This document shows, one piece after another, positions 1,385-38,680 of a DNA stretch of 64,000 nucleotides. Source of the stretch: Sipunculus nudus (Eukaryota; Annelida; Sipuncula; Golfingiida; Sipunculidae); NCBI GenBank assembly GCA_026874595.1, contig CM049306.1, positions 33,186,019 through 33,250,018 of the forward strand, in the 5' to 3' direction. Under the pieces are notes generated by a model. The model worked only from the letters and a program-made list of their open reading frames with translations, did no database searches and was not told the DNA's origin. The position numbers and the translations under genes are program-made. The first letter of the stretch is position 1, and every line of letters starts with the position of its first letter.

Positions 1385-1835
1385 TCCTTTTATATTATGC
1401 ATATACATAGATATGGGTTATGGTATGATGTATATATATATTGGTGTCATGACCTTTCCTATGAGAGTGGCCTTGACCTTGAATATTGTCATATATGGTG
1501 AAAATCACACAAAATCATTAATATCTCAATAAGGGATGCATGGATTGGTCCAAAAATCAACTTGACCAAAGATCTTGGATAGTATTGTCATGTACCGGAA
1601 ACAGGTGGTGCCACCTGTTATTCTTTTACTTGTTTTCTTGCCGTTTAATACCCCCATCATTGCCACTTAACAGTACTGTGAGCATCTTAAGTCAAAAACT
1701 AATGGACATATTTCTTTAATATTATGCATATACATAGACATGGATTATGGGATGATGTATATTGAAATTGGGGTTATGACCTTTTCTTTTAGAGTGACCT
1801 TTTCTATGAGAGTGGTCTGATATTAATTGTTGCTA
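1385..1835. repeat. Diverged tandem repeat, period about 330 bp
   Basis: The block starting near 1390 (words TTATGCATATACATAGA, then GGTTATGG, TATGATGTATAT and TCATGACCTTT) recurs near 1720 with the same order of words, giving about 1.3 copies. Between them, at 1601-1618, lies the near-perfect palindrome ACAGGTGGTGCCACCTGT. That palindrome recalls the palindrome of the tandem-core family at 16892 and 55089. It is probably a remnant of a tandem-core mobile element, but no ends were found. Confidence 0.6.
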
Positions 1836-2282
1836 AAGATGGGGGGCCTATTCTTAAAGGGGGGGGGGTTTAATTGTCTGGGGATACTATGGCACCTGCG
1901 TCACCAAGAAATATCTAGTTACTTTCTGTGTAATGCATTAGTGTTCAATTGCAAATTTTAGAGTAATTTGCATTTGATAATGTTTAATTGTATTAGAATT
2001 ATTTGTAATATTTCAGTTAAATCATTCATATCAGCTATGCTTGGAATAAAAATCTTTGATATAACTTACACATACAATTTTAAACATTTTTTTTGCATCA
2101 GTTGCTGTTTATGTTTTGGATGTCTAAGATGGGAACATAATAATATTATTACAGTTGATAGAATATGCTGTGGTCAGCTATAAATGAACTGTTCTTACTT
2201 TAATTACCAATTAATTTTCCTGGCAGCATTTGTGTGTGATCTGATTATTTTTTGCACTGGTTTTATGTCATTTTTTAAGCAG

Positions 2283-2357
2283 GAAACAATAAAATACCAC
2301 ACCAAGTAAAGATGCACAGAGATGGTGTATTCAACCTGATAGAAGAATATCTTAAAG
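2283..2357 (+). CDS. STX18: STX18 exon (first in window)
   Basis: The acceptor AG is at 2281-2282 and the donor GT at 2358. The exon enters with two bases of a split codon, encodes [20 protein letters not shown] then EYLK, and leaves with one base. It matches the helix just before the RVCKLYSEQR-like segment of vertebrate syntaxin-18. There is no start codon, so it is internal. Confidence 0.85.
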
Positions 2358-11179: not shown

Positions 11180-13865
11180 CATTTGTTGTGCTGTTCCATA
11201 CTATAATAACATAATACGAAAGATATGGTGCATCAAATATGGGGGAGTGGGTGCCAGAGATATAATGCCAGAAATTATTTAAGAAGAGTAAAAAACTCAA
11301 AATTAAATTTTTTCGAAATTTTTCAGCTATAGCTGGAATATTAGTCATGGGTACTGTCACTTGGACCACATGGTAAATCTTTAAGAGGTCATTCTCGACT
11401 TGTAGTGAGAATTAAACATACCTATCAAAGGTGTCTTATTTGATTTAACTCTGCTAGAAAACCATGTATCTGACATATTTGTTAGGACTTTGCAACTTGT
11501 ATGCTAAAAATGGAACCGGGAGTAAGACATGATTGTTGGCATTTACCATAAATTTCACCATTTTGAAAGGCTATTTCATCATTTTCAAACTAGGCTAGTA
11601 TGTGCTTGGGAAAACAACAACAAGCCGTGTAGGACAAAACAGGCATTTAAGACCACGCATTTTTCAGGCGTATTAAAACTTTCACACAATTAGGACAGGC
11701 AGATATGATGTCTTCATGGACCTTTCAAGTGTTGTGAGAGCAAAACACTACATTATATTCATGTTGCGAGTGCAACAAACTCATGGGAGGCTCTTTATAT
11801 ATTTCAATCATTGTTGCTTATGAATGTAAACCTTGGTTTTATTTCTTTTATTAAAACAATCTGGGGTTCTGTAAAAACACATTGTGAACCAACACTGAAA
11901 GTCTAGTGGGATACTCATGAGAAAAATCTAGGGGAATATATTGCCAAATGTCATTCATGAATACAGGACAGTGTTGGTCATGATTAAGGCTGTTTATGAA
12001 AAATACATGAATAAATGATTCCTTTTTAAAAATTACAATATATATTTTTAGTGGATCAGCAATTCCTTGTAAAGTAGGCTATTATAATTTCTTGTATTTT
12101 CCACAGATTCTGGCATTATTACTCCGTACTTCTCTCCCAGGCACCACAATACAACTGTGATATAGAAAATTTACACATCTGCAGCTTGTTAAGTTTCGAA
12201 AAAATTCATAATGCTGCAAAAAAATAAATACATCTTGCAAAGACTTACCAGGATGTCGTTTTCAGTGGCAACCACACTGACACCATTTATGCATATTTGA
12301 ATGTCCCAGTAATGTATAAATTAGAATATGAATTAAATCATTTAAATTAATTTTTGATTATCTTAATATATTTAAAATTCATTTTTTGAATAGTTCACTT
12401 TGAAATGATGCTTCCTTTTGGCCACTGAATTTTCCTTGTATCAGCACACTGATGCCATTGAAGCATCTTGTGATAAAAAATCCAAGCATATTGAATAGAT
12501 TACTAGCTGGAAAACATAAACAAAATTTTGAATTGGAATTGAATTGGAACTGAGAAAACTGAATTGACCCAAAGTCTTGTAACAGCATTTATTAGGAAGA
12601 TGTCATGCATTTATTCAAGTTGTGTAAGTTTAATGCATGTAGTTAATGATAATGGTTTTGATTAGTTTATAAATATTATCCATGATATTTAAGGGTCATG
12701 TTCAGCCAGTATTGAAGTCTTGGGCTTTTTGTATGTTTATTGTAGGCAAGTTATTGATAAGCTTGTTTCTGTGTGAAATGGGGCTGTAGAAATAAATTTA
12801 TTTGAAATCACAAAACAGATAAATGGTATTTTGCTCACAGTAGGCTTTACAATACAATTCATTAACATTAATTCATAGCTAATATTCATCCTTGATTATA
12901 TAGAAAGATAACTACATGTGTCTCAGAGCTGTAAATGACTATCAATGTCACAGCCTGCATGGTTCAGAATGCTGTGGTTGGCTTTTTATTTATGAGGGGT
13001 TTAATTTCACGATGTTCACGAATGTGAAATAATCACAAATACGAAGCCCCATCCACTAAGTAGAACAAGAGGGGCCACTGGATCTGCACAGAATAGTTAT
13101 CACACCTCTAGAAACAACCTTTTCAGCAACTTGATCTGTGCATGGTTTTGAAACTGGCCCATGCATACAAGCACTAATTATTGTAAAACATGCTATAATC
13201 ACAGGGGATTGACTGGGACACAAGTAATAAGTTAATGACTTAACTAGAATATACTTAAAGTATATTGAGGAATTCTTAAAATGGTTGATATACACTGTGG
13301 ACAAAACTGAAAATCATGAAAATTTAACCCCACAAATTTAAGACCAACCAATGTATGCTGTGTAGTAAATACTATATGTATGTGGTACAGTTTGTTATCT
13401 GCCTGATATTGTACATAGCAAATGAAATAAAAGTTGAGATAATGAATAAAACTTATTATGTTAGTACATGCGATTTATATGATGAGAATAAATGCACAGA
13501 GATGGTTACTCTATTATCATTACAAATATAAATATGTCAAGATATATCAAAAAGTGCTGCAACAGGGAGAAGAAAATTTTGAGTTTTGGTGCTGTTTCAC
13601 CACCCCCACTTCTCTCTGCTTTCAAAAAAAGAGGGGAGAACTAATGACAAAACCCAAATAAGGTCCCCAAGTCTGGAAAAAAGGGGGGGGGGGGGTGACC
13701 AGGCCCCAAATATTGGTCTAAACCCTTTAAAAAAAGGTTGCTGTGGCTGAAAAAAAAGGGGGGGGGGGGTCCGGACCCCTAGGACCCCCCCCCCCCCCGG
13801 ATTCGCTTCTGGATTGTGTGATTGTTTCAGTTGCATTCATATCCTTTATTTTGTACAAGATGACT
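11180..13865 (+). other. STX18 3' UTR and downstream sequence
   Basis: AT-rich sequence after the stop codon with no supported gene. Candidate poly(A) signals are ATTAAA at 11411-11416 and AATAAA at 12010-12015, and further AATAAA words occur near 12786 and 13427-13445; none can be chosen without transcript data. Poly-C and poly-G runs lie at 13684-13798, inside a block with GGTCCGGACC and CCTAGGACCC words that looks like a decayed element end. Confidence 0.6.
11411..11416 (+). terminator. Candidate STX18 poly(A) signal
   Basis: ATTAAA lies 232 bases after the stop codon. It is the nearest common signal variant, but several AATAAA words follow within 2.3 kb, so this is only a candidate. Confidence 0.25.
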
Positions 13866-14546
13866 TGCGCTCTTTACACAGTGGTTTACAAATAGGTTTC
13901 TACCTATATCGTAAGCGCTGTTTGTTTTGACCTCTTATCCTGAATTGCTACACCAGAGGGGAGCACTGTATTTTTGTCCAATAAGATGGTTTACCAGCCA
14001 AGCGAGGAATACACGGAGCCAATGTTGTTCATTTGATGTGACAGCTCATCGCACAGGCAACCGTCTGAACAGACCACAGGCTCAGGGAGAATGGCCCTAC
14101 ACGTGGTTTGCTTAGGGCCTTGGGCACATAGGATGCCCGGCCGGTGAGCTGTAATTCAAATGAAATGTAACAACAAAGGGTGCGTGCACACCTAGCTGGC
14201 TTGTTTCAGTTCTGCAAACAATAGATACATGGCTACGCTAACATAGTCATAATGTCATAATCGAATCGAACGATGATACGAGAATGCAGAGGGAGCAATT
14301 AAAATTCGACCATAAACTGTCATCAAGCGGCGCTTGAAGCGCAGCTATGGGCGGAGCCAAGATGCCTGTCGAGTGTTTGTTAATTGGCATCTGATTGGCT
14401 GCTTGTCACATCATACGCACGTTTTTCAGCGGACAAAGAACCGCCATCTGGTGTCTAAATATATCATAAACGGTCAAGGCAAGCAAACAGCGGGAGAATC
14501 AGTTGCTTCTTTAGAAGCACAAGATTCCCGATGCCTTGGGAGCGTA
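13866..14546 (-). mobile_element. 9-bp-TSD DNA transposon (non-autonomous), copy 1
   Basis: The 681-bp element is flanked by exact 9-bp direct repeats AAGATGACT (13857-13865 and 14547-14555). Its ends are TGCGCTCT and GGAGCGTA, a short imperfect inverted repeat of TACGCTC. Over its full length it is the reverse complement of the copy at 21786-22471. A 9-bp target duplication suggests the Mutator-like superfamily, although Mutator ends are usually longer. No transposase is encoded, and the open frames inside are incidental. Confidence 0.85.
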
Positions 14547-14555
14547 AAGATGACT

Positions 14556-16019
14556 CTTCCGGAGTCATGGTTACCCTGATTCACATTTTCTTCTCTTCAG
14601 CACAGAGAAGTTCATGGAGTTGTTTCATCAGCACTCGCTTCTTTATGGGTTTTTTTGGGAATACAGTTTTTACCTTCCACCTTCCAGGGCGTCATTGGCT
14701 TTGCTGGTCCTCCACTGTTGGTTCACCACCCAATGCTCCATGACGGGCACAGCTTCGGTTTCATCCAGAGCTTCCTGAAAGACAAATTTGTTCTTGGGAA
14801 GAGTTCAAGGTAGTGTTCTCCCATGCCCCCTCTCTGATTCTACTAGTTTGACACAACTTTCCGTCCTAGTGTTCACAGGTGCTGATTTTCTTTTTGACGC
14901 CAGTAGCTTGCTTGACGCCCCCGTGTAGGTTATGATGAGACCTTAACAATCAGCTATCTTCCCTTTATAAACTGAAGGTAATCCCTTGAATCTTTTATAA
15001 ATATTGGCTAGAAAATGTGGATATCACCGCACACAGGCTGTTTTGTTTATATCTAAGTACGTGTTTATAATATGTGGGGCCCCCAAAAATAAAACATTCA
15101 AAAAGAGCATCTGGCGGCTAGCTTTTGCAACAAGTGACCTTTCTACCCTCGCATATATGCAACCTACCACCTTGGGTTACATCTTTATCCCGTTTGTCAA
15201 CAAAGCTGTGTTTACAAACACGTTGATAAGCAAGTTCATACATCCTTCGCGAAGGCATTATAAGAATTTCTCATAACCAGAATTACCCTTAGATCATTAA
15301 TATATACACAGAGGAAGCCATAAATCACATAAATTCTTTATCTAAAGGTAGGTGAATGGGCACCTTTAACCAGAGGCCCTCTTGATGATGCACAGCAGCT
15401 GTAGGTACAGCGACCTGCTTGGCCTTGTAAGATATCAGGCCTACCTACCACCCGTCTTATCTGTATTTGAACTGACCCATTAAAAAGCCACCCCTATTGT
15501 AAGGTAGACTGTCAGGGGAAGGTTAAGGCAGCAGGGCCCATCACGTCATCTCTGGTGCTTGAATGATCTTGATCAGTTTGACGTGCTAAGTGGCTAAACT
15601 AATCGACATAAGCTTGAATTTTAGGAGCCCCCGCGATTATCTAGTTTCCTATTTATTACGTTTACCTAACAGACTGGCAGTATATGTTTGGCTAATTAAA
15701 TCAGACCTTTCGGACATTTGGTGATGTTAAACTTAAATTCCTGTATTGTTTTATTTTTATCTGTTGGAATAATCCTACAGCCTTGCTGCGGATGGCTCTT
15801 TGTGTATCCAGTTTCTTCTGGTTGGGGACCTTCTGGTAGTTTCGTCAGTGCGGCTCTCTTGGCTTCAATAACTGGCAGTAACTCTGGTGGATTTTCGCGT
15901 CATGCCTTAAACCAGAGTGTGTAGTGTGGAGGTTGTCTAGTTCGGAGGTTGACTGTCTGGTTTGGACCGTGGTGCTCAGCATCTTACTAGTCAAGGGTTG
16001 CTCTACGTGAGGCGGGCGG
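14556..16019. other. Intergenic sequence, no gene recognised
   Basis: Mixed-composition sequence between two mobile elements, somewhat less AT-rich than the surroundings. Open frames up to 90 codons occur without splice context or recognisable motifs. No repeat shared with the rest of the window was found. Confidence 0.5.
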
Positions 16020-16022
16020 TAA

Positions 16023-16360
16023 GGCCAAAATAAGAAACGGTATGGTTCTCAGGCACTTTTTTTCAGAAATCAATGCGGGCGGGCATTTTTTTTTTATTTT
16101 AAATTTTTTTGTATGTTTCGATGAAAATGTCAAATGATAAGGGAAAAGCATGATAATAACAGATTTTTTGTGGCTAATCAAGTAAAAGCACTAAATAACA
16201 ATGGAATTGTATGATATTATTTTCTTGAAAGAAATGCCCGAGCGGCTGCAGCTCAAAATTGGTAAGTTTCTATTGAAAATCAAAATAAAAAGTTTTGATG
16301 CGGTGGTTTAAAATTGATGCGGGCGGTGCCTTAGAACCATACCTTTTATTTTTTTTGGCC
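16023..16360 (+). mobile_element. PIF/Harbinger-like MITE, copy 2 (longest)
   Basis: The 338-bp element begins GGCCAAAATAAGAAACGGTA and ends with the inverted counterpart (GAACCATACC ... TTTTGGCC). It is preceded by TAA (16020-16022) and followed by TGA, consistent with a TAA target duplication carrying one change. The interior matches copies at 4742 and 25247 (words TCAGAAATCAATGCGGGCGG, GGGAAAAGCATGATAATAAC). It is the best template for the family. Confidence 0.8.
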
Positions 16361-16466
16361 TGACTTTCCACTGATGAACACATTCCCTGGCGTTCGTCTT
16401 CGCCAGGCGAGTTACATCTGATCAGCCGTAGCTGTCGCTTCCGCGTTCAACTGCGTTTCAATAAGC

Positions 16467-16556
16467 GCGAGAGCGAACGCGAGCGCGATAAAAATCGCTT
16501 CTATGATAATATCACTAGAGAATTTCCATATGCGCGTCAGCGAGAGCGAACGCGAG
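16467..16556 (+). repeat. CpG-rich 17-bp word repeated 73 bp apart
   Basis: GCGAGAGCGAACGCGAG occurs exactly at 16467-16483 and 16540-16556. The first copy runs into GCGCGATAAAAATCGC, an inverted repeat. A short hairpin (CCTGGCG ... CGCCAGG) lies just upstream near 16387. It stands out as CpG-rich in a CpG-poor region and is possibly the end of an unidentified mobile element. Confidence 0.6.
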
Positions 16557-16891
16557 GGCGATTTTCTAAGGTCTTGTTGTGCCCACCTTGTCGCCGTCAA
16601 TTCAAAAGGAATGGCAGGTCCCTATAATATAGGGCGACATGGTTCCATAAGATGCTTTATGGATGACAAGATAAGGGCACCCAACGGCCTTCGGGATAGG
16701 CTTTACTCAGTCGGATGTCAAGATATATAAAAGCGAACTACATGTACTTAAAATTGGCCAGTTCTTTAAAGTCAGAGAGCCCGTCCTCCGTTAGGACCCT
16801 ACGCTGCGTACTTCCAGGCTCTTTATTTGGGATAAGCCAAAGTGTTCTCCTATCTTTCGTACAAACCCAATAAGTCAGAGATTAAAACAAT

Positions 16892-17760
16892 AAACTAGAA
16901 TACGGGTAGTCGACAAGCGACTACGTGTATCCGCCGAAATCAGAGTGGGACGGGTGAATTGAGGCATGGATTGAGTGGCAAGGGGAAATAGAGTGAGGTG
17001 TGTTGCATATTAGCAGCCGAAATGAGTATGTAGGTTGCGCCACTTACCACAAAATCCAGAAAGCTATCCAAGTTGTATACATATGCAAAATTAGAGGCAG
17101 ATAAGTCTAACCACTACTTGTATATGAGTGATTTTATCCCACAACAGACAAACAGAAGGACGCTGTGCAAAAATGGTGACAGGTGGCGCCACCGATTTTG
17201 TGTATGATTAAGAGCTGTGTAAGATCTATACACATGCAAAATTTCAGGGGGATATGTCCAACCAGTCCTGAGATATAAGCCTGAATGTCTGCAGCGTAAA
17301 CAAATGTAGGTGGCGCTACCTGCCATAAAATCAAGAAAGCTATCCAGGATGTATACACATACAAAATTTCAGGTGGATGATGCAGAGATATGAGTGATTT
17401 TATCCCAAGGCAGATGAACAGATGGATTCTGTGCAAAAATGGTTGCAGGTGGCGCCATTATTTTTAGTGTATGTTATAAAGCTATCCAACGGCTATATTT
17501 GTGTAAAATTTTTAGCCTGATCGGTCAAACGGTTCCCTAAATATGTGGATTTACTTGTGGAAACAGACGCACAAATGGACGCCGGGCAGAGAGGAAAGGT
17601 CAGAGGTCAACCAAAAATGACGGCGCAGCAGTTCACATGTGACCCGAACATAATTCCGAATTTTCAAGAATTCCGCTCAGTGGTTACAGAGGAGTTCTCT
17701 TGAAACCTCTGCGGCGGCGGCGGCGTCCGAATGAAAACCTGTGTTTTGGCGAATACAATT
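16892..17760 (+). mobile_element. Tandem-core element family H3, copy 1
   Basis: It opens AAACTAGAATACGGGTAGTC, with the hairpin GTAGTCGACAAGCGACTAC at 16906-16924 and GTATCCGCC just after. It closes with GGCGAATAC near 17749, the inverted counterpart with one change. Between lie about four ~140-bp half-units of two alternating types, marked by GGTGGCGCCACC-like palindromes near 17032, 17182, 17308 and 17446. They are followed by a GACGCACAAATGGACGC stretch. A (GGC)n insert near 17711 is absent from the copy at 55089. It is non-coding. Confidence 0.8.
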
Positions 17761-18803
17761 AAAGAAAGAAATGTGTACTTAATTATCTAGAGCTTCAGGT
17801 TGTGCACTGCCTCTAATAAGTACAAAATATAATTGAGTTCTGACAAATGTATCCAAGGTAGCTATCATGACAGTATTTGTAACACAGTTAATCACGCATG
17901 AAAAGAGACATTTTCTTCCAACAAAGAGATCAGTAAACTCCGTTCCCACGTCATTCTGTAATTCCTACGACCAGTGTACTCACAAAAGGTTTCTTCGCCC
18001 ATTTAACTGTGACCTTCGACTCGCGAGTGTTGGATAACTTAGCTCGTCCTTTACCTCTGGCCCTTACTGCGTAACTGCTTAATGCACGCGTGTTTCGGAA
18101 ATGATGCCATTAATCACCGCACAGGTACAACATGAAAATATAATATTCCGCCAACACCGGACACGTTTCTCCGTGGTAGAAAACAATGTTCCACACGAGC
18201 TTGTCGTTATATGGATAAGCCAACAAAACAATGTCCATATCAGAATATCGTATCTCAAGGTACAAAATATCTTTACGCCCAGAATTCTCTACCGTCTTGC
18301 AAATGACTGAGACTGACACAAATCTCTTCACATCCGCGCTCGTCTCCCGTATAATATATCCCGTATATATACTAGAGTAATTAATAAATTTCCACAACCC
18401 GTATGGCACTACAAATTACTTTACTTTCTTTTAATATGCCTCCTGTCAGGCACATGTACGAATATTATCCAAGCCTTTATCAAGTCATTTATCATGGAAT
18501 TCAAATCTTACACATGGTTAGCAGTTCTTAAGATGAGGACTATACACACCCACCACATTTGTAATTTCATGGCAAATTGACTGTTTGTTAATTGTTTTGG
18601 TCTGTTGTTATTATTATTATTATTATTATTAACGGTACATGTGGTGCTCACCTCTTATTAATTATTTTAACCCTATGTTGTATATTTAATGCTTAAAAAA
18701 GGCAAACAAACGATTAATAAATGTAAATTCCATAATATTTGCATTTATTTATAATTTTGCCCTGATCACTATACGTTTATTTAGATAGTTGTTCAAATCA
18801 TTA
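17761..18803. other. Intergenic sequence, no gene recognised
   Basis: No supported gene. A (TTA)n microsatellite of about eight units lies near 18606-18631. Opposing open frames of 69 and 99 codons near 18101-18409 overlap and show no family motif. Confidence 0.5.
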
Positions 18804-19240
18804 TGAACCTTTCTCCTAACCTGCCTTTTCTGGCCTATTTTTTATGAACATTTCTCCTAACCTGCCTTTTCTGGCCTATTTTTATAAACCGTTCTCCTAA
18901 CCTGCCTTTTCTGGCCTATTTTTATAAACCTTTCTCCTAACCTGCCTTTTCTGGCCTATTTTTATGAACATTTCTCCTAACCTGCCTTTTCTGGCCTATT
19001 TTTATGAACATTTCTCCTAACCTGCCTTTTCTGGCCTATTTTTATGATCATTTCTCCTTACCAGCCTTTTCTGGCCTATTTTTATGAACCTTTCTCCTAA
19101 CCTGCCTTTTCTGGCCTATTTTATGAACCTGTCCCTAACCTGCCTTTTGCGGCCTATATTTATTAATCTTTCCCCTATGACCTGCCTTTTTTGGCCTATT
19201 TTAATGAACCTTTCTCCAAACCTACCTTTTCTTGCCTCTT
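18804..19240 (+). repeat. 40-bp minisatellite, about 11 copies
   Basis: The unit contains TTTCTCCTAACCTGCCTTTT then CTGGCCTATTTTTATGAACC. The first eight copies are almost identical; the last three are diverged and vary in length. Copies abut with no spacers, so it is a tandem array. Confidence 0.95.
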
Positions 19241-20179
19241 TCGATCAGATCTCAGAATAGGCCCCTTTAAGAAAGCATCGGATTTTTTAATGATTTAATT
19301 TGGATTATTTGACCTCCAAAGTTCAACATTTAATCCTGTTACCTGTAATGTTGGATTAAACCATACTTACCTTAGCCATCTTAACAAAAAAGCCATTTGA
19401 GTCCAACCTCCCTCCTCCCATCCACAATATTATAAAAATCCCACCCTGCTCTATGGAATTGGGAACGTGCAGGTTTACCGGTCCATGCACTGCCCACACT
19501 GCATGTTTGGGGGATTTTCGTGTTTAGCTCTTTAGATAACATATAGTCCCACCAGCCGTAATTAAATAGGTAGTAAAAAATTTATCCTTTTATACATTCC
19601 AATAATGGCCACAGTCAGTGTCAAATCACTCTTAGGTGAAGAGGGCGTGCCTTGTAGTGGAGACCTTGACTAGGGGCCTTGAAACCCACGTACCTATGGT
19701 AACAAATAGAAAGCGGTAACAATATCACTACCGCGGTAAATACATGATGCAACCCCCTGATGATCTTTAAGTGCTGCATGAGTTTGGGGGTGCCAGACTT
19801 GCAAAGGTACCACATACCTGTCTAGTTTAAATTTATAACTTGAACAAGAGACATATACATAAATATTAGAACAAATATTTCATACTTGTTACTGTTACCA
19901 CCCATACACACTGTTCTCTTGGCTGAGGGCTTTCGTCAGCTTTTGCTTATATTCTAGTTGTGGTCTGAAATGAATATGATCTGCAGAGCTGGATGTGGTA
20001 TGATTGTAGTTGATCTCTCCACCACTAGATGACGCTCTAATCTGTACACCAGCAACGACTGGCCCTCGACTGCAGTACTGAATTTCAGGTCAAGAAAACG
20101 TTTACCAGATCTCATTATATTTCCATGTATCACACTTGCGGCTTGCCTGTATTTATATTTATAACCTGTGCATAAACTT
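19241..20179. other. Intergenic sequence, no gene recognised
   Basis: Nothing supportable was seen. Open frames here are short and lack motifs. Confidence 0.45.
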
Positions 20180-20480
20180 AACCCAATTCCTGGGAGAAAA
20201 ACATTGTTTTTAATTTATTTTCCCACAAAATAAAATATACCGGTAGGTTGTGTGATTTGTTATAAAGTAAACAGCCTAACTGTGAGCTCTGTCAACTCGG
20301 CAATGACCACAGGCACAGGGAAAACTCCTGTCATAAAAAATTAAGTTGTCAACAAAAATTTAGTATTTCTATCACTGGAAACACCAAATTTTAAGGGAAG
20401 AATACAAAAATAATAGATTTGAGTCATTTCTATATTTTGTCTGTGACGTCACACTTTGCACCAGGCAATCCCACCAGGGC
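20180..20480 (+). repeat. Dispersed repeat with CRE-like sites, copy 2
   Basis: A diverged copy of 8327-8640, in the same orientation. It carries TGACGTCA at 20444-20451, at the position where copy 1 has TGATGTCAC, while copy 1's intact site corresponds here to TGACCACA. The family ancestor therefore probably had two TGACGTCAC sites. Confidence 0.6.
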
Positions 20481-21060
20481 CAAGTCTCTGGACGCAGTGC
20501 TCCCCTCACATAACAAACCCACGTGCTAATTAATACATTTACCTGACCTAAAACACAGGAGCCAGTGACCAGCCAAAGAAACTCAGCTATAAATGATGCA
20601 TTAGATAATGTATGCACTATCATACCTCAGCGGCAGATCGCCACCCAAACGCCGAGTTTTAGTTTCCCGGCCCATGGCAGGGGCGATGGTTGGAATAATT
20701 CTTCCCCCCCCCCCCACCCCCCATTTGCCAAAAAAAGGAGGGGGGGGGGATAAATGTATTTTATTCCCCCTGCTAATCAGAGAGTAGGATCTATCAGTAA
20801 ATTTTGATAAAATTGTGTAGAGGATCGGGGTTGCACTGAAGAAACAATTAATTTTTGAAGGGGGTGTTACGTTCCTTCCCCTTTTTCACCACTTGAGGTT
20901 CCTATTGGAACGGGGAAAGTTTAAAAGAATGCACTCGGGTTTGCTTCAGTTCCGCACTCCTGTTCACATGAGTCCAATTGAAAGTCAAATTTGATTCTTA
21001 AACTGAAGATTTATTCTGATGATCCATACAACACAACATCATTAAAAAAAACAAAAGTTA
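20481..21060. other. Intergenic sequence with C and G runs
   Basis: Long C runs (20704-20724, broken by single A) and a G run (20741-20750) face each other. No gene was seen. Confidence 0.5.
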
Positions 21061-21105
21061 GGCCAAAAAAAAAAATAAGGTATGGTTCTCAGTGCGGGCA
21101 GATAC
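21061..21105 (+). mobile_element. PIF/Harbinger-like MITE, left-end fragment
   Basis: Only the terminal inverted repeat survives (GGCCAAAA ... AAGGTATGGTTCTCAG then GTGCGGGC). It is preceded by TTA, as for the other copies. The interior and right end are deleted. Confidence 0.7.
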
Positions 21106-21785
21106 AGATACAACATCTAATTTACTGACCTAGTGTCTTCGATTCATGGATCCACCTGGTGTCTTGATCCATGAAACGGGCTGGACTAGCAGCTACAAGG
21201 CTCTATAAGCCATGTATCATTCTGTCAGATAATATATAAAATATTATGAAGGAAAGTGATAAAATATCTCTAATTAAACAAAGTAAGGTAATCAAACATG
21301 TCAACTACTACTGTATCATCTAATTATGATTAACATTGTTAACTGACCATTTCCTGTAATCATTACAGGAGCCTGGATCACCATTATATATAAATTAATA
21401 TCAATTGATTTAATTCTATACGGATTGTATACCATGTGATACAGGGCGGTTCCTTTCCTTCCTGGTAGAGACCGCCCCATTCATAGGTATTAGTCACAGT
21501 GTTTGTTCCGCAAGTGACGAGGAGAGCCCGTGTTACCGAAGCTGTATAACATACAAATTTCATGCAAAGAAAACTTGATTTGGGGATCCTGAAGGGCGGG
21601 GGTACTCGGGTTGTCGTACGCCTACACACATCTGGCTTTAAAACTTGTATCTTTCATAAGTACTCAATCATCTATACACAGGTATACTGTTAAAGCAATT
21701 GTGACTATTTTGCTAGTTTTCTAAAAATATATGAAAATGTCGATCAGGTCGGGTTGCACGGAAATTATACAATGTGACATTGAAT
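21106..21785. other. Intergenic sequence, no gene recognised
   Basis: No supported gene or repeat beyond the left target duplication of the next element (21777-21785). Confidence 0.45.
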
Positions 21786-22471
21786 TACGCTCCCGAGGCA
21801 GCGGAAATCTTGCGCTTCTAAAGAATCAACTGATTTTCACGCTGCCAGCTTTGACCGTTTATGATATATTTAGACACCAGATGGCGGTTCGTTGTCCGCT
21901 GAAATTAGCGTGCGTATGATGTGACAAGCAGCCAATCAGATGCCAATAAACAAACACTCGACAGGCATCCTGGCCCCGCTCATTGCTGTGCTTCAAGCGC
22001 CGCTTGATGAGTTTCCGGTCGAATTTAAATTGCTCCCTCTGCATTTTCGCATCATCGATCGATTCGATTATGACATTATGACTGTGTTAGCGTAGCCATG
22101 TATCTGTTGTCTGCAGAACTGAAATAAGCCAGCGCGGTGTGCACGCACGTTTCGTTTGAATTACAGCTCATCGGCCGAGCATCCTATGTGCCCAAGGCCC
22201 TAAGCAAACCACGTCAGGGGCAATTCTCTCTGAGCCTGTGGCCTGTTCAGACGGTTATGCGGGGCGATGAGCTGTCACTCAAAACGAAATAAACATGATT
22301 GACTCCGTGTATTCCTCACTTGGCTTTGTCTTCCAGCACAAGGTCTCATCTGATTGGACAAAAATACAGTGCTCCCCTCTGGTGTAGCAATTCAGGATAC
22401 GAGGTCATAACAAACAGCGCCTTACCATATAGGTAGTAGCCCTATAGGTAAAGCGCTGTGTAAAGAGCGTA
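21786..22471 (+). mobile_element. 9-bp-TSD DNA transposon (non-autonomous), copy 2
   Basis: The 686-bp element is flanked by exact 9-bp repeats ACATTGAAT (21777-21785 and 22472-22480). It starts TACGCTCCC and ends AAGAGCGTA, giving perfect 7-bp inverted ends. It is inverted relative to copy 1 and in the same direction as copy 3 at 30053. No transposase reading frame is present. Confidence 0.88.
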
Positions 22472-22480
22472 ACATTGAAT

Positions 22481-23142
22481 ATAATAAGCTCAAACACGAA
22501 GTACTTGACAAGATCACCTAGCTGGGTCATAATTTCCACCTTGGTCCATCAATGAGATCATTATTTATTAGCACTTGGTTAACAATGTACGCACTGACAA
22601 TGGAGCTCAGCGGAAACGGTCATGGGGCCATCACCAGGGGCGTATCAAGGGATGGTTTATTTTTCGGTGGGGGGGGGGGGGGGGGATTGTAGGAATCAGT
22701 GTCTACATATGGGATGAGTGATTCAACACAGGGGCTTATAATCATTGGGTTCTTTGCTTCTGATTAATCAAAAAATTAAATTATATCATTTATTTTATTT
22801 CAGCTTGAACTAGGCCTATAAAATCAGCGTAATGCTTAAGCATGTATAAGTGATGCACATAAATGTATGCATAAGTGTTATTACAAATCCAAAATACAGG
22901 AACAGCTTTATGGGACTGCCATCAGCCTCTGGGTTAAAGTAACATTGATCAAGAACAGCAATCAGTTTCCAGCTATTCTCGTTTACAGGATAAACGGCTG
23001 CTTCCTTTTTATTAGTGTTAAAATTTCAGAAATGTAAGATGAATAAGAGATCGAGGATTTGTCTCTCGGAATCACTTCTTATAATAATATGCTATTAAAT
23101 TTGCGCCTGACAGGTCTCCCAGGTCCAGAAGTTGCACCAATC

Positions 23143-23197
<55 letters not shown>

Positions 23198-23904
23198 TGA
23201 GGGTGTGTGTGTGTGTGTGTGGAAGGGGGGGGGGGGCACAAGGGCTCCGTCCTCGTCCCCAGGTTTCTACAATAATACTCCTGAAAGAAATTCCTGTTAC
23301 TTTGATGTGAAAATTACACAATGCACACATTGGGAGGTGTAATATCTTGAATAATTAAGATTAAGAGAAATGAATATTTATATATATATAAATGTAATAT
23401 AAATTTATATTATATCTGTGTGTTGGCTTGCATCATTTATCTTGGGAAAATATTTCGTGAAACCTACCCCCCCCCCCCACCCCCCCTAAATTCTGATTCT
23501 GCCCCTGATCCAATTAAAAGGTGATGTGAGTTTATAAAGAAGTGTTTTGTCACTTTTGAAATAAATAGAGTGGCGTATGCTATATGAGGTGAATGAAATT
23601 CTTTAGTTTCTGTAACAGTAACCATAGAACACATTATATAATTTGAGAAACCAGTATATCTACGCTCCATAAACAGCGGTTACGCTATGATTAACTTTTC
23701 GCTGCACTACCTGTGGGTGGAAGGTCAACCAGGAGGTCACGCGCTGTGTTCAGAGCGTACCAGCATATCCAATTCTACTCTTATTTATTTGATATCTAAA
23801 GCAAGAATACATTGAAAAAGTCGGATCACTCCGTTCGGTGGTCAAACTGTTGCGGTGTATTCTTGTTCTTTATCTCTATTCAATGGACCAGCATGGCTAA
23901 TTAT
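22481..23904. other. Intergenic sequence with G/C runs and transposon-end-like words
   Basis: CAGGGGCGTATC followed by a G run (22634-22686), and a C run followed by GATTCTGCCCCTG (23467-23506), look like the two ends of a decayed DNA transposon. The flanking bases do not duplicate, so they may belong to different insertions. A (GT)n tract lies between them. Confidence 0.4.
23142..23220. repeat. (GT)n microsatellite
   Basis: About 78 bases of GT dinucleotides with a few GGGT interruptions, followed by a G run. Open frames across it on both strands are artefacts of the repeat. Confidence 0.95.
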
Positions 23905-24342
23905 TAGGGCTGTGCGATATTATCGATATATCGCGATACAGTGATTCTCATATTGTGTATCGCGATACAGTTTTCAAATATCGACTTTTTTATATTTTGT
24001 TAACGTCTCTCATACTGATATTATTAGTTAAAGTAATGTTTCTATTACAAATTTCGACATGTAAATGAGTTGGGAGTAATAGCGGGAATAAAGTGAAACC
24101 CGAAACCGTGTCTTTAGATGTTTTAAAGGAAACTTTCAAGCACTAGGCGGGCCTCAAATATACCCTAGGTCAATGGTCCATCCTAGAAAATTTGCATATC
24201 TGCTCGATGAAGTATTGGTATAAGAGAAGTATATCGTCGAAATAATTAATCATTCATTATTATCCTCTCCTCACATTTCTGATAACTGCAGGAAGATCAA
24301 GGGTCAACAAAACAGTTTTATCGTTTAAAAACGGCAGCCTTG

Positions 24343-24410
<68 letters not shown>

Positions 24411-24536
24411 CAGAAAACACTTACTAGTATATCTTATAAATATAATACCATGAAAATATCGCAATACGTATTAAAATACGCTACCACATATTGCATTATA
24501 TTTCAATATGAAATTTATAGGCGATACCAAGCCCTG
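23905..24536 (+). mobile_element. hAT-like non-autonomous element 1
   Basis: It begins TAGGGCTGTGCGATAT and ends GCGATACCAAGCCCTG, imperfect inverted repeats of the CAGGG type. Flanking 8-mers are CTAATTAT and CTATTTGT, similar at 6 of 8 positions as expected for an old hAT 8-bp duplication. Repeated TATCGCGATA words fill the left end, and a (TA)n tract lies at 24343-24408. No transposase is encoded. Confidence 0.6.
24343..24408. repeat. (TA)n microsatellite inside hAT-like element
   Basis: About 65 bases of pure TA within the element at 23905-24536. Confidence 0.95.
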
Positions 24537-25246
24537 CTATTTGTACATCTCTTTATTTGATTTCAGATTGTCTCTTGTTAGCCATCAGTTATATTTTTTT
24601 TGTAAAATACTGTACGAGGACTGTTTTAAGGGGCCCAGTCACCTATTAAGCATGTTGAGTTAACACGAAAAATAACGTCTTCCCTTTAAAATAAATCTGT
24701 ACCTGCCAAAATATTGCCTGTTAACGTTTGGTTACTCCTGTAGACGAGTTTTAAAAACAGTGAACCCGGCGCGATCGCAGAAGTCAACAAAAACACAGTG
24801 CGTCGGGCCGTGTGCTGCGCGGAGCCACAACGCGTGCCAAATTGGGGATGCCCTGACTGACTTGGCTCAAAAACTGTAATACATGTTTCCGCTGGCTGAA
24901 ATACCGCGTTTTGCCCCTCTTAATCGGACCTCCGGTCACGCGGCCTTGTTATGGTAAATCCGTGTTTTCCAACGCGCAGGGCTATCTATAACAAGGTGTT
25001 AAACAGTCGTATGCGAGGAAATGAGACTGTGTGCTGGAATGGTTTTGCTGGGAAACTTTTTATAAAGCAAATCTGAACTGAAAGTGTGGAAGAACAGGCA
25101 TAATATTGCTCCTGATTATGTCCCTTTAAGTTTTATGTAAGAAAAATAACTAATTACTAATATTATAGAGAACATGGAACTGGGAGATCTGCCGGTGTCA
25201 CACCGAATACTTTCATTTATTTCACCGTAATTATCGCAAGTGCTGT
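24537..25246. other. Intergenic sequence, no gene recognised
   Basis: It includes a locally GC-richer patch at 24760-24980 with several CpGs. No repeat partner or coding exon was found. Confidence 0.45.
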
Positions 25247-25496
25247 CGGGCACTTTTTTTAAATCAGTGCATGCGGGCGATTTATTGTTTAACCTTTTTT
25301 GAATGTTTCCATAAAAATGTCATAAGATCAGGGAAAAGCATGATAATAACAGAATTTGTTTGCTAAGAGGTAAAAGCACTACATAACATAGAAAATCTCA
25401 TCAAATTGTATTAGTTTATCCTCTTGAAAGGTGAAAATCAAAACAAAAATTTTTGATGGGGGGGGGGGGGGGGGGTGTTAAAATTACGGTGGTCAT
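25247..25496 (+). mobile_element. PIF/Harbinger-like MITE, interior fragment
   Basis: It matches the interior of the copy at 16023 (GGGAAAAGCATGATAATAAC, GAATGTTTCCATAAAAATGT, TATCCTCTTGAAAG), but both terminal repeats are lost or badly degraded. A G run of about 17 has expanded near 25459 in place of a short motif in the other copies. Confidence 0.65.
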
Positions 25497-28148
25497 GCTA
25501 AAACGGCTGGAATCAAGCTGTCCCAGTCAAAAGTGCTGTTTACTTCTTAGATGAATTCATCATGCCTAGATTCCTGTTTGCTTAGTTTTCTTTTGATGAG
25601 CAGGGCATTTGTTTTCATGTTATTGAAATTAGCACACAGAAGAAACCTTGCTGAAGCTATATTAAGCGAATCGCCGAATTCAGCAAGATGTGATCCGGCC
25701 GTTCGCAAGCAAAGTGTCAAGCATTTTATATATTTTATCATAAATTTATATATTATTTTATATAATTTGTATATTAAACTTTTGAAATAATAAAATATCA
25801 TAAAAATACACGATTCTTAAAAAAGAATGTGTTTATTGAGCATAATAAACATAATATGAAAATGGTAATATTTAAAAAAGAAATTTCTTGTAGTAGTGAA
25901 TACAGAATCAGGAATGGATGAATCTGTATGAAATGATTGTATTTTGTGTGGTTTCCTTTTAAGATTATTATAGTATTTAACTAAAAGGTGAAGAAAAAAA
26001 CCTATGTATGTGTGTGTGAGAGAGAGATAGAGAGAGATAATTAAAACAATTTTTTTTAATGAGTGGTCACTTTCACACGAACTAATTTATAGATATATTG
26101 TAGCACCAGTGGCAAAAACTGTTATATCTAACATCAATCCAAAAGTTGTTTTAAATCTCTATTAGACCATTAAAGTAAATATAATTTTAAATCTTGTACA
26201 CTATTCTTTCTTATGGTATACATATGTTTTAAAATTTTCATTAATTTTCATATGCTCTTTGAACATTTTCGTTTTTTTTTAGCGGGCTTATATTAAACAT
26301 CATGGCAATTTTTCTAAAAGTATTTTCTTTATCATGTTTCTATATCTACCTAATTAAAACTGAAATTTGAAAATTTAAAAGTTTTGGATTGTTTATAGGT
26401 ATAAGGATTTTTTTTTGCCAATTGTACCTTCTTTAATATAGAAGACGAAGCGTCATAAGTCGAGATCATATGCATGTACGTACCAATTCTTAACCAGTTG
26501 AATATTTACACTTTATTTCTTTATAACGTGTCACCAACTGGACAGAGAAGAAAAAAATCAATAAACAAGAAACTTTTGGTTAATCAACTTTCAATTTTCG
26601 TAAAATATAAACATGATTGCTCAATTTTATTGAGAGCTGCTCTCCCACCTGTAACTTTTCTGTAATCATGCAATGCACGTATGGACACTAACTTGAATGA
26701 TCCGACCTTATAGGTGCCGCCACCTGTGTTTTCTTCAGGTTATTGTGTTATACGGAGGATCAATCGGATGGGTTCTAATCTTGTTCTCTCCACACATCCA
26801 TATTTTATCACGGCACCGGAAATGTAGTTTCGCGTGTTGCATTTTTTCCTTGCCAGCTTCTCCTATCCGTTCATTATTTTCAACACGACAGATTGCGCTT
26901 TAATATAATAAAGACGAAGCAACACTTAGTATATAAATGACAACAAATACTTCAAACCCTACTTACCACATATTTATTTTTTTAATGCTCTAGGATCAAC
27001 TGACCATCTTGTGGTCCCTGACTTCCTAAGTCTGAGAAAGATTTTTAGGTGCCTTAGGCCCTGATTTATATTAACAATTTTCTGCCTTGGTACACAGTCA
27101 TAGTTGCCGACAGGTGGCGCTGCGATGGCCCTTACGAAAAGACCATGCTAAAACGTGCTAATTTGAGGCGTGACCACAGAGGAGCTCTATGACAAAAAGT
27201 CAGTGCGACCATCGTCAGTTATAATATAGAACTTGAAAAATCCATACCTTTATTTATATAATATCATATTTATTTGTAACTTTTCATATTGAATGTTCAA
27301 ATAATAATTGCTGAGACTATAAAACCCAGTACCATTTCTTTTGTTCAGGTCAGTAATTGGTTAATTAACTGCCCCATTGATAAGCATCATTAAAGAGCCA
27401 AATTTGCTGTGCATAATACCTAAACGATCCAGGTTTGTACAAAATCAGCTTAATTAATCCTAGTCTTTATAGAACACGCCCTGATGATGGTAGTAAAATA
27501 CAGATCACTTTGAAGTCTAATTACTGAAAAAAACGCGTCAGCAATCTCCAGCCAACCAGATGAAAAAGGTGAACTCTGTGGTACAAATGTCCTAAGGCTA
27601 GGCAACTGCACAATAAAACCTACATACAATCATACAGGTCCGTAACTTCGGTATGTTTTGTCACCATAATTAGAATGTTAACATCGTTGCATTTTTTAAC
27701 GGCAAATAATCTAAAATGAAGAAGTCCCATGCATTTTACAATGCTCTACACGTCAGGCGTAAAATTAAGTCGATAAACACTTGTTACAAGACTTAAAAGA
27801 ACATTATTTTTGTACAGAAGCTCTTGATCACGATGCCTTCTGGGCCGTTTATTCAAATATAGTTTATGCCTTGCCCTATATACAGTTCATTCAGTGCTGC
27901 GCCGTATATATGACATCGCCCAACGCCAAATGACTCCCTAAATCCTTTGGTATCAGCCAATCTGGAGTAAACTTTTTTTTTTTGCTTCTGATTAAATGTT
28001 GAAGGCCTCGACAGGCGCTCTATACTAACAACCTTTTTTCAGACAATTGTTATGCATGACACCCGTTGACCCCTCCCTGCAAGAAATTCCTGGTTCCGCG
28101 TCTGCTCGGATTGATAAATGGTGGTCCTTATTCCCCTTACCAGTGGTA
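25497..28148. other. Intergenic sequence, no gene recognised
   Basis: No supported gene. A short GT/GA microsatellite lies near 26008-26039. The phrase CTTTAATATA ... AGACGAAGC occurs near 26432 and again near 26899, so 26430-26930 may be a small element with related ends. GGTGCCGCCACCTGT near 26713 and ACAGGTGGCGCTGCG near 27111 echo the palindrome of family H3. Confidence 0.45.
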
Positions 28149-28275
28149 ATATATTCACAGTGTGGCTTTAGGGTTTATATTCACAGTGTGGCTTAAGGTT
28201 TTATATTCACAGTGTGGCTTAAGGTTTTCCATTAACACTGGGGCTTAAGGTTTTGTATTCACAGTGTGCCTTGTT
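28149..28275 (+). repeat. 26-bp minisatellite, left part
   Basis: About five units of ATTCACAGTGTGGCTTAAGG plus TTTTAT. The array resumes at 29372 after an inserted element. Confidence 0.9.
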
Positions 28276-28278
28276 TTT

Positions 28279-29363
28279 AGCTCAGCTGACTGTAAGTCAT
28301 CTGAGCTATAGCGATCACCCTTTGTCCGTCGGTCCGTTAACAGGGCACAAATCGTAACCACTGGACCTGGGATCTTCTAACTTGACATCCAGCGAGGTCC
28401 ATGAAAATTCTCCTTGAAAACCTGGAATTAGGTCCCTGTTACCCATATTGTTCGAGCTATGGGGCTCCGAAGTAACCCCCCCCCCCAAAGAATAATGGAA
28501 AATTTGATACAAAAGCTCAAGTATTTGAACAACTAATGCATTGATCACCATAATTCTTTGCATAGATATTGATTATGGAGTGTTTCATAAGCTCTGCAGA
28601 CTGATGGCGCTACTCGTATTTTTTTATATTTTTTTTACGATTTTTTTTCCCTCTATATATGAGACCTTAAAAGATGCGGTCATCTGTTAACAGGGCACAA
28701 ATCATAACAACTGGACCTATGATCTTCTCTCTTAATATGCAGGGAGGTCCATGAAAATCTCCTTGGAAACCTAAAATTAGATCTCTGTTACCAGTATCCT
28801 CTGAGTTATGGGGCTCGATCAGTAGACCCCAAAGAATAACTTAAAATTTGATACAAAAGCTCTAGTATCTCAACAAATTGTGCATTGATTGCCATGATTC
28901 TTTGCATGCATTTTCATCATGGAGTGTTTCATCAGTTCTTGCAGACTGGTAGAGTCACCTGGGTTTTTCCCCCCAATTTTTATGCATTTTCTCTCTATTT
29001 TTGAGACCTTCAAAGATGCGGCCGTCTGTTATCAGGGCAGAGAGGTCAAGGAAAAATATCCTTGGAAACCTGACAATAGGTCTCTGTTACCCATATTTTC
29101 TGAGCTATGGGGCTTATTAGCATCCCTAGCATAATTGAAAATTTGATACCATAGCAGGGCACAAATTATTACCATTGGACCTAGAATCTTCTAACTTAAA
29201 ATCCAGGGACGTCCATGAGAAAGTCTCCTTGGAAACATGAAATTAGGTCTCTGTTGCCCATAATCTTTGAGCAATGGGGCTTATAAGCACACCCCAGAAT
29301 ATTTGAAAATTTTAGACCAAAAGAGAGCACAAATGATAACCATTGGACTAAGAATCTTCTCAC
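28279..29363 (+). mobile_element. Tandem-core element with H1 hairpin, copy b
   Basis: It starts with the hairpin AGCTCAGCTGACT / AGTCATCTGAGCT (28279-28307), then a GTCCGTCGGTCCG stretch. Tandem cores follow, marked by CAGGGC(A)CAAAT at 28341, 28691, 29033 and 29155: a ~350-bp period with later units deleted. The core differs from that of copies a and c, so the same hairpin end has been combined with a different core. It sits inside the 26-bp minisatellite. It is non-coding. Confidence 0.7.
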
Positions 29364-29371
29364 TATGCTTC

Positions 29372-29790
29372 CTCAAAAGTGTGGCTTAAGGTTTTATGTT
29401 CACAGAATGGGTTAAGGATTTATATTTACATTGTGGCTTAAAGTTTTATATTCAAAGTTTGGCTTAAGGTTTTATATTCAAAGTGTGGCTTAAGGTTTTA
29501 TATTCCCAGTGTGGCTTAAGGTTTTATGTTACCAATATGGCTTAAGTTTTTATGTTCACAGTGTGGCTTTAGGTTTATTTATTCACAGTGTGGCTCAAGG
29601 TTTTATGATCACAGTGTGGCTTAAGGTTTTATATTCACAGTGTGGCTTAAGGTTCTATGTTCAAAGTGTGGCTTAAAGTTTTATCTTCACCGTGTGGCTT
29701 AAGGTTTTATATTCACAGTGTGGCTTAGTAGTATATATCACCGTATGGCATAAGGTTTTATGTTCACAGTGTGGCTTATAGTTATATTAT
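29372..29790 (+). repeat. 26-bp minisatellite, right part
   Basis: About 15 units of the TTCACAGTGTGGCTTAAGGT type, with single-base variants and a few length changes. The sequence is strongly GT-rich on the + strand. Confidence 0.9.
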
Positions 29791-29924
29791 AGTCACTGTG
29801 TGGGTGTTGGGATGAAATACTCGTGTGGCTTGTGGTGATATAATAGTAACATTTTTTTTATGGCGGTGTCCTGTTTAACGTGTGATTTGTGAAAAATAAG
29901 TGTGGTTTATCTTTGCTGTGGTTT

Positions 29925-31010
29925 ATGGTAATGTTCAGAGTGTGTTGGAGTTATGTTCACAATGTGTTGTGGTAATATCCAGAATGTTGTGGGAATGTTC
30001 AGTGTGCTGTGGTTATGTTCACAGTGTATAGTGTTTTGTGGTTATGTGCAGGTATGCTCCAGAGGCAGCAGAAATTTTGCTGATTTTCCCGCTGCCTGCT
30101 TTGACCGTTTATGATGCACTTAAACACCAGGTAGTGCACATGGGTTGTCTGGTGAAAAAACTGCTGATGTGACTAGCAGCCAACCAAATGCAAGGTAACA
30201 AACACTCTACAGGCATCAGGCTCCGCCCAGAAACCATTTATGGGGCCATTCTCTCCGAGCCTGTGGCCTGTTCAAATGGTCGCCGGGGCAATGAGCCATC
30301 ACTGAAAGCGAAATGAACAACATTGGCTTGGTGTATTCCTCCCTGGCTGGTGAACTGTTTTGTCTTCCAGCACAGGATCTCATCTGATATCACAAAGATA
30401 GAGTGCTCCCCTCTGGTGAAGAGATTCAGGATACAAGGTCAAAACAAACAGCGCTTACGATTTAGGTGGATGGCCAATGGGTAAAGCGCTGTGTAAAGAG
30501 TGTAATGTTCAGGGTGTTGTGGTAATGTTTACAGTGTACAGTGTGTGGTGGTAATGTACAGTTTGTTGTGGTAATGTTTACAGTGTACAGTGTGTGGTGG
30601 TAATGTACAGTTTGTTGTGGTAATGTTTACAGTGTACAGTGTGTGGTGGTAATGTACAGATTGTTGTGGTAATGTTCAGTGTGTAGTGTGTTGTGGTAAT
30701 GTACAGGGTGTTGTGGTAATGTTTAAAGTGTGTTGTGGTAATGTTTACAGTGTACAGTGTGTGGTGGTAATGTACAGTTTGTTGTGGTAATGTTCACAGT
30801 GTACAGTGTGTGTTGGTAATGTACAGCGTGTTGTAGTAATGATCACAGTGTACAGTGTGGTGTGGTAATGTACAGTTTGTTGTAGTAATATTTAGTGTGT
30901 TGTGGTAACGTTTACAGTGTGTTGTTGTAATGTTCACAGAGTACGGTGTTGTGGTAATGTTCAGTGTCTGGCACTAGTGGTCAGAAATGTTCACAGTGTA
31001 GTGTTGTTGT
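29925..31010 (+). repeat. GT-rich minisatellite (GTTGTGGTAATGTTCACAGT type)
   Basis: Irregular tandem units made of TGTTGTGGTAATGT, TTCACAGTGT and ACAGTGTGTGGTGGTAATGT, with a higher-order unit of about 59 bp near 30524-30660. A 9-bp-TSD transposon interrupts it at 30053-30504. Decayed variants (GTGTCTGGCACTAGT, GTTTGTGGCTTAAGTAGT) trail to about 31210. Confidence 0.9.
30053..30504 (+). mobile_element. 9-bp-TSD DNA transposon, copy 3 (internally deleted)
   Basis: The 452-bp relative of 21786-22471 is in the same direction. It starts TATGCTCCAGAGGCAG and ends AAAGAGTGTA. Flanks are ATGTGCAGG and ATGTTCAGG, a 9-bp duplication with one change. It has lost about 230 bp of interior and is more diverged than copies 1 and 2, so it is probably older or of another subfamily. 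Confidence 0.82.
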
Positions 31011-31505
31011 AATGTTCACAGTGTCTGGCACTAGTAGTCGGATATGGCTTGTGGTGGTGGTGAAAGAGCACAGTGTGTGGCTGGTGTAACTGAAAGAGTG
31101 GATGGCATCTGGTGTTATGCCACTTATGGTCATAATGTGGCATTTATAATGGTGTTCAGTGTTTGGCTTGCTGTGGAATGGACGTTTGTGGCTTAAGTAG
31201 TGTTTGTGGCTTAAGTAGTCTTGCCATGCACTGTCTGGTCTGTGCTGGTGCAATGGTCCCCGTCTGTGGCTTTAGCTGGCATAGAAGTCAAGAGATTTTC
31301 TTGGTCAGTGACTTATGTAGATCAGTGTGGGACCCTGGTTAACTCAAAGAGTTGTCTCCACCTGTATATTATGTTGATCTGTAATTAATAACTTGAGTCA
31401 TAATCAGGAGACCAAATTTTCATGTAGGTTAAAGGTTGTTTCAATAATTGGACCACATAACTCAGGAATATTAATCAACTTCATGCAGTCAAGGGAGTCA
31501 AGGGT

Positions 31506-37902: not shown

Positions 37903-38680
37903 TTAGGTCCTGATATCCAAAACCTCTTGCATGAGGGGCTGGATGCTGCATGGGTTAATTTTCAGGAGGACCTGTGAGTGTTCCTCGTTCAGATTACGAA
38001 TGTCTGTTAATTTCATGAGCAGGCGTGGGTACAATGCTCGTGCCTGCCCTGACGGATAAACGGACTCCAGGTACTTCTTCAGCAGCATTGAGTACTTCTC
38101 CTGTTCCTGCGTAACCAGATCCTTACTGACCAGGTTCGGCCGATCAGGAGAAAAAAGTGATATAACCAATAACAATATCAAAGTCTTTTGGTCTGCCTGC
38201 AGATCCAGGGCTAATGATTTCACAAAAGTCATGTGGTCCTCGAACAAGCCTCCCTCTGCTCGCTGTAGCTGCTCCAACTTCATGGCATGGCTGTCTTCCT
38301 TATCGAAAGGATCCAAGAAGTGCTGCTTCTCCTTATCAAATGTTATCACAGACCTTAGAATTAACAGCTCGATGCTTCCTCCTTTTAACAAGGCTATTTG
38401 GTCTGGCTGATCCAAGGATGTAAAGGATCTCACCTTCTTAGCCATCCCGATAACACGCCGTACGCTTATCTCAGCGATGTTCACTAAATCCGACATGTTG
38501 CTGGCGTTGTCTCGTGACATCTCTTCCTCCATGTTGATTTCCAGCGAGCCGCAGTAAGCTTTGTATAGTTCCTCCACCTCCATGGCATCTTCGTGGCTGA
38601 GCGGATGAACGAGTGAGCTTGATGTCACTGGCTGGGTAGTCGGGGTATACACTCCATGTCTCTCTAGCTCCCTAACCACC
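37903..38680 (-). CDS. HR96: HR96-like receptor last exon: hinge and ligand-binding domain
   Basis: The acceptor is CCTTTTACAG before 38680; the first base completes the Arg codon. One exon encodes 258 residues to TAA-type termination at 37905-37903. Helix 3 to 5 carry [20 protein letters not shown] and [19 protein letters not shown] later part reads [20 protein letters not shown], as in VDR/HR96. The AF-2 core LMQEVL is intact, so an activating ligand-binding domain is expected. Confidence 0.95.

Follow-up and report, generated by a model that had tools for sequence, protein, structure and literature searches.

A 64,000-nucleotide stretch of the Sipunculus nudus genome (hereafter the window; C1:33186019-33250018 of a 1.43-Gb assembly of 153 contigs) carries three copies, here called A, B and C, of a short transposon-like element that we refer to as family 1. 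A first-pass annotation of this DNA had assigned the three to one transposon family with 9-bp target duplications. Both the positions and the grouping hold up, with identities of 76-85% in a blastn search of the window: using copy B (21786-22471) as the query, copy A aligned over nearly its full length (14546-13868, 85% identity), and copy C aligned in two pieces (30080-30229, 76%, and 30231-30504, 79%). A fourth element of 99 bp, absent from the earlier annotation, has bipartite ends like those of family 1 and of a second family described below. The elements and their flanks are as follows.

13857..13865, no strand: target duplication AAGATGACT, left of copy A, exactly as at 14547-14555
13866..14546, minus strand: family-1 element, copy A, 681 bp, 85% identity to copy B
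14547..14555, no strand: target duplication AAGATGACT, right of copy A, exactly as at 13857-13865
21777..21785, no strand: target duplication ACATTGAAT, left of copy B, exactly as at 22472-22480
21786..22471, plus strand: family-1 element, copy B, 686 bp, query of the genome-wide search
21786..21803, plus strand: left end signal TACGCTC-N6-CAGCG of copy B, from pattern search
22454..22471, minus strand: right end signal TACGCTC-N6-CAGCG of copy B, from pattern search
22472..22480, no strand: target duplication ACATTGAAT, right of copy B, exactly as at 21777-21785
23651..23660, no strand: 10-bp near-repeat CCAGTATATC, left of the 99-bp element, one mismatch to 23760-23769
23661..23759, plus strand: short family-2 derivative, 99 bp, with a TACGCTC pair; its ends are C1:33209679 and 33209777 in the family-2 pattern list
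23760..23769, no strand: 10-bp near-repeat CCAGCATATC, right of the 99-bp element, one mismatch to 23651-23660
30044..30052, no strand: ATGTGCAGG, left of copy C, 8/9 identical to 30505-30513; inside a minisatellite, weak
30053..30504, plus strand: family-1 element, copy C, 452 bp, diverged and internally deleted, aligned as two blastn pieces
30505..30513, no strand: ATGTTCAGG, right of copy C, 8/9 identical to 30044-30052

The exact 9-bp duplications claimed for copies A and B are present as described. For copy C, the flanking words ATGTGCAGG and ATGTTCAGG do agree at eight of nine positions when scored by eye, but this duplication is weak evidence because the copy lies within a minisatellite and ATGTTCAG is part of the repeat units themselves. 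The minisatellite arrays, with units of 26 and 49 bp, extend over 28081-31046 of the window. The flanks of the 99-bp element form the 10-bp near-repeat listed above and no 9-bp one.

Nine-base duplications across the genome

The genome was searched with copy B; from 2883 first-look candidates, 40 were taken on to scoring, and 41 matches were listed: 40 near full-length and one partial match adjoining another copy. We tabulated flanking sequence for 40 copies with both ends, made up of 39 near-full-length matches and copy A; left out were one match whose right end did not align (L003) and copy C, judged by eye. Except for copy A, the tabulated copies are the best-scoring ones. An exact 9-bp target site duplication (TSD) flanks 31 of the 40, six have a single mismatch, and three have none (L024, L026 and L034). 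Edge-to-edge repeats of 7, 8, 10 or 11 bp were found in 0/40, and left flanks compared with right flanks of different copies matched in 0/1560 control pairings. The proposal of a non-autonomous DNA-transposon family with 9-bp TSDs is thus supported, as is the expectation that copies elsewhere would also be flanked by a 9-bp duplication; the second family adds 8 exact duplications at 10 independent sites.

The family-1 consensus is about 699 bp long and non-coding, its longest open stretch being 75 codons. Of the 40 tabulated elements, 39 measure 686-701 bp and copy A 681 bp; the 40 agree with the consensus at 97.6% on average (88.2-99.0). Copies A and C have diverged further than the tabulated best-scoring copies, and copy A shares a mean identity of 89.9% with the remaining aligned copies. 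Internal-deletion derivatives of 86-98 bp also occur; of three that were fetched, two have an exact 9-bp TSD and one has a single mismatch.

Among the 37 copies that make up the target-site set, the duplicated 9-mers are all different. They show a weak preference mirrored around the TSD, with C three bases before it (18/37) and G three bases after it (17/37), against base rates of 18% for each. Two further preferences lack a mirror counterpart: C at +4 (16/37) and T as the final TSD base (20/37).

Family 1 is therefore short, has no transposase gene, exists in many near-identical copies with fixed ends, and makes a TSD of fixed length. These features, together with terminal inverted repeats (TIRs) and internal-deletion derivatives of 86-99 bp, are those of miniature inverted-repeat transposable elements (MITEs). 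It differs from MITEs in general in its 9-bp TSD and in the paired, inverted CAGCG block at each end. The copies are non-autonomous MITEs, an ordinary kind of element with unusual ends. At one locus (L015), a truncated copy (301-823) and a complete copy (about 909-1607) stand in tandem, about 85 bp apart.

Two families share bipartite ends and 9-bp duplications

The first-pass annotation described the ends as very short and as stopping at the boundaries it gave, which is true in part. Perfect inversion is limited to 7 bp, yet the signal reaches 18 bp: when compared with the 99-bp element, both family-1 ends read TACGCTC, six variable bases, then CAGCG. Because this second fixed block follows N6 at both ends, the stretch needed for function is probably 18 bp or longer. 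The 12 fixed bases have 7591 matches in the genome (3733 + 3858), and a reversed-pattern control has 33 (14 + 19). For this pattern and for the family-2 pattern we read about the first 100 places each; among the matches listed, the six variable bases are mostly CCGAGG or TTTACA, which correspond to family 1.

The family-1 consensus also holds an inverted CGCTG at 55-59 from the left end and 53-57 from the right, so that each end, with its CAGCG, forms a small palindrome that can self-pair. Copy C has these inner CAGCG/CGCTG pairs at both ends. Over 60 bp, left and right ends resemble each other no more than shuffled sequence does (225 of 500 shuffles reach their likeness); the figure falls to 5/500 over 130 bp and 0/500 over 200 bp, with 20/500 over 349 bp. 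Aligned to its own complement, the full-length consensus reaches a score of 140, whereas 100 mononucleotide shuffles average 60 and go no higher than 122.

A second family is defined by the six-mers CATAAR on the left and TGAACA on the right. This pattern, which excludes the family-1 six-mers CCGAGG and TTTACA, has 608 genome matches against 0 in the control. Among the matches listed, 13 end pairs could be recognized by eye; nine span 545-608 bp, and the other four span 99 (the window copy), 159, 788 and 1454 bp. Both flanks were fetched for 11 of the 13, and the 9-bp TSD is exact in nine, has one mismatch in one and three mismatches in one. Two copies about 18 kb apart, C2:81795885-81796463 and C2:81813531-81814110, have identical flanks and therefore represent one insertion in a segment that was later duplicated. 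Counting independent sites gives the 8 of 10 reported above. At least two families thus share the bipartite ends and the 9-bp duplication.

In one family-2 copy (L107+L114), an open stretch on the minus strand encodes 53 amino acids resembling the N-terminus of RecQ helicase (E 3.5e-5 to a RecQ structure), and against Pfam DEAD the match reaches only 0.012. The underlying DNA is common to another copy at 81%. Either exon capture or descent from a parent gene may account for this stretch. The second open stretch tested (L117) gave no significant match. The 1454-bp copy (L116), viewed by eye only and not scanned, has one 97-codon open stretch and nothing transposase-like. Around two family-2 left ends, L114 and L115, the flanks share only about 396 bp, with no transposase-like open reading frame (ORF) seen by eye.

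A further block inside the elements resembles the CTCF motif, represented here by an IUPAC core, CCASYAGRKGGCRS; the likeness was noticed after the fact and is offered as an idea only. In the family-1 consensus it lies 89 bp from the left end and 87 bp from the right, facing inward, with 13/14 (reached by 2 of 200 shuffles) and 12/14 positions matching. A family-2 copy (L117) matches at 12/14 (19/200 shuffles), 87 bp from its CATAAG end, and has further 11/14 matches elsewhere.

Candidate sources of the transposase

Elements that lack genes but have fixed ends and make duplications of constant length at unrelated sites depend for their movement on a transposase acting in trans, as is established for MITEs; duplications made by hAT and P elements are about 8 bp. 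We favor, with moderate confidence, a reading in which these non-autonomous MITEs move by cut-and-paste, in trans, through a DDE/D transposase of the Mutator-like element (MULE)/IS256 group. The 9-bp duplications imply that the target strands are severed 9 bp apart. The transposase of another element would mobilize the gene-less copies, recognizing CAGCG and cutting at TACGCTC. Two transposase subunits may contact the target, a possibility that sits well beside the mirrored C and G preference. The enzyme would be Mutator-like because that group is known for 9-bp duplications. Membership of the MULE superfamily is probable but unproven, its sole basis being the length of the duplication.

Published ranges are compatible with this assignment. 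TSDs are 4-10 bp in MuDR/IS256, 8 bp in Merlin and 0-4 bp in PHIS (PMC10045372), and MULE groups with 9-bp TSDs exist (PMC6446971). Copies of both families have TSDs in the MULE range of 8-11 bp, often 9. It is only in part correct that long inverted ends are the rule for MULEs: their TIRs reach 500 bp, but they start at 14 bp, and several groups have none, among them Curupira with its 9-bp TSD (PMC6446971). Among known systems, non-autonomous MULE/MuDR elements of animals, with TIR-poor groups such as Curupira and MULE-Mollusca, are close to our family: they share the 9-bp duplication, and some of their groups have short TIRs or none (PMC6446971). Family 1 differs in a perfect TIR of only 7 bp and a bipartite 18-bp signal, and no link to a transposase was found.

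MULEs are present in this genome, with 131 matches. We examined 38 MULE-derived stretches (124.7 kb), which together take in 32 of these matches and in most cases extend just 1.5 kb to either side. Two MULEs with guessable ends have 9-bp flanking repeats: in L096 the inverted ends are identical for 29 bases, with the outermost eight mostly differing, and in L057 they are long and imperfect. Several observations nonetheless weigh against a MULE source and the proposed end structure. TACGCTC-N6-CAGCG, allowing one mismatch, occurs in 0 of the 38 stretches, and the termini of L096 and L057 are quite different from the TACGCTC ends. In copy A, one end has a different inner pair and the other has none, and in the 99-bp element the inner CGCTG pairing is found at one end only. 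The suggested Mutator-like link therefore fits the duplication length but is not shown, and the autonomous MULE partner with TACGCTC ends that the first-pass annotation proposed was not found in these stretches. Two further extended MULE stretches had no ends that we could find, and other scans of 3.3-kb MULE loci yielded nothing convincing.

One abundant MULE, with an ORF of 607 amino acids, was rejected as the partner: it belongs to a repeat of more than 9.2 kb, and there was no TACGCTC in the 9201 bases read. This high-copy repeat was seen at C10:28513400-28522600 (L072, L065, L073) and C1:77753500-77762800 (L074, L071, L075), and the two copies are 99%, 99% and 97% identical over three parts. 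Besides the 607-residue FLYWCH-MULE ORF it contains two C-type-lectin ORFs, a 500-residue ORF with no Pfam match and a region with weak likeness to RING; the repeat is possibly composite or virus-like. A count by eye puts an open frame of exactly 607 amino acids in 43 of the 131 MULE matches listed.

The strongest competitor, which we nevertheless consider rather unlikely, is that the partner encodes another or an undescribed DDE transposase with a 9-bp TSD and short bipartite ends, perhaps in an autonomous parent that also carries a RecQ-like helicase. Its appeal lies in the failure to meet a partner among the MULE or Merlin stretches examined (38 MULE and 20 IS1595-type) and in the 53-residue RecQ N-terminal stretch retained by one family-2 copy. 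That fragment, however, may be a captured host exon, as in Pack-MULEs, and the significant match comes from one copy only. A more elaborate version, which we regard as doubtful, is an undescribed lineage defined by TACGCTC-N6-CAGCG and an inverted CGCTG about 40 bp further inward, with a non-MULE autonomous member bearing the RecQ-like helicase; in it, the ACCAG-centered block lying 87-89 bp from three of four family ends would scatter inward-facing CTCF-like sites. Among the papers listed by literature searches, no title or abstract opening described a family like the two reported here.

An ISL2EU/PHIS partner is very unlikely, even though one 3267-bp element (L100) appears at first to offer it. 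L100 has TACGCTC...GAGCGTA ends and a 9-bp flanking repeat (with two additional bases at its left), and its interior matches DDE_Tnp_4 (6.3e-17) and YqaJ (8.6e-12), with SWIM at only 0.0085, below the cut-off. The insert (about 692-3028), however, includes a separate inverted repeat that starts AGGG and has AAT next to it, and the insert is flanked by nearly the whole of family 1 (consensus 1-554 and 556-699). Because of this separate inverted repeat and the near-complete surrounding family-1 sequence, the ISL2EU element is most likely a nested insertion, and on these grounds we rejected it as the partner. It is the only family-1-ended copy seen with ISL2EU-type coding pieces. Published duplications of PHIS elements (PIF/Harbinger, ISL2EU, Spy, Pangu and Nuwa) are 0-4 bp long (PMC4482050, PMC10045372), in contrast to 9 bp in family 1. 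A 2133-bp family-1 copy (L101) likewise contains a nested insert (about 556-2000), with an inverted repeat of its own of 61 bp.

Still less credence attaches to a Merlin (IS1595-like) partner able to make 8- or 9-bp duplications. Such transposons are plentiful in this assembly, with 150 matches scored of 209 candidates, and their published TSD of 8 or 9 bp (PMC8101967) is close to ours. Family 1 differs from them in its TAC termini and short TIR, Merlin elements having a terminal GG and a TIR of at least 24 bp in the same source. Of 10 chromosomal stretches with local Merlins, seven show an 8-bp flanking repeat, termini that start with GG and inverted ends that match, and no flanking repeat was seen in the remaining three. 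With at most one mismatch, TACGCTC-N6-CAGCG occurs in 0 of 20 IS1595-type stretches (78 kb; 10 chromosomal and 10 from small contigs). Many of the scored matches lie on small, bacterial-looking contigs; IS1595-type transposases are numerous on C101-C138, and these contigs probably stem from bacteria, either a symbiont or a contaminant, in which insertion sequences have expanded.

Spread without transposition (segmental duplication, satellite or assembly artefact, with direct repeats arising by chance) might be read into the minisatellite around copy C, the tandem pair at L015 and the two family-2 copies with common flanks, but it is refuted to near certainty by the duplication table, in which the 9-mers of 37 copies all differ and yet 31 of 40 are repeated exactly at the element edge.

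Combining a 9-bp TSD with minimal ends, family 1 offers a useful test of how little terminal sequence suffices for a long-stagger transposase, and its thousands of end matches and clean duplications resolve both the end signal and the target preference well. A MULE partner, which we favor, would represent another short-ended branch; any other would be a new source of 9-bp duplications in animals.

The window holds other features as well. Two more repeat families occur, one at 6094-6811 and 44253-45669 and the other at 16892-17700 and 55089-56194, the latter with internal tandem units of 278 bp. On the minus strand lie pieces of a nuclear receptor, with the DNA-binding part at 45930-46337 and the ligand-binding part at 37903-38721.

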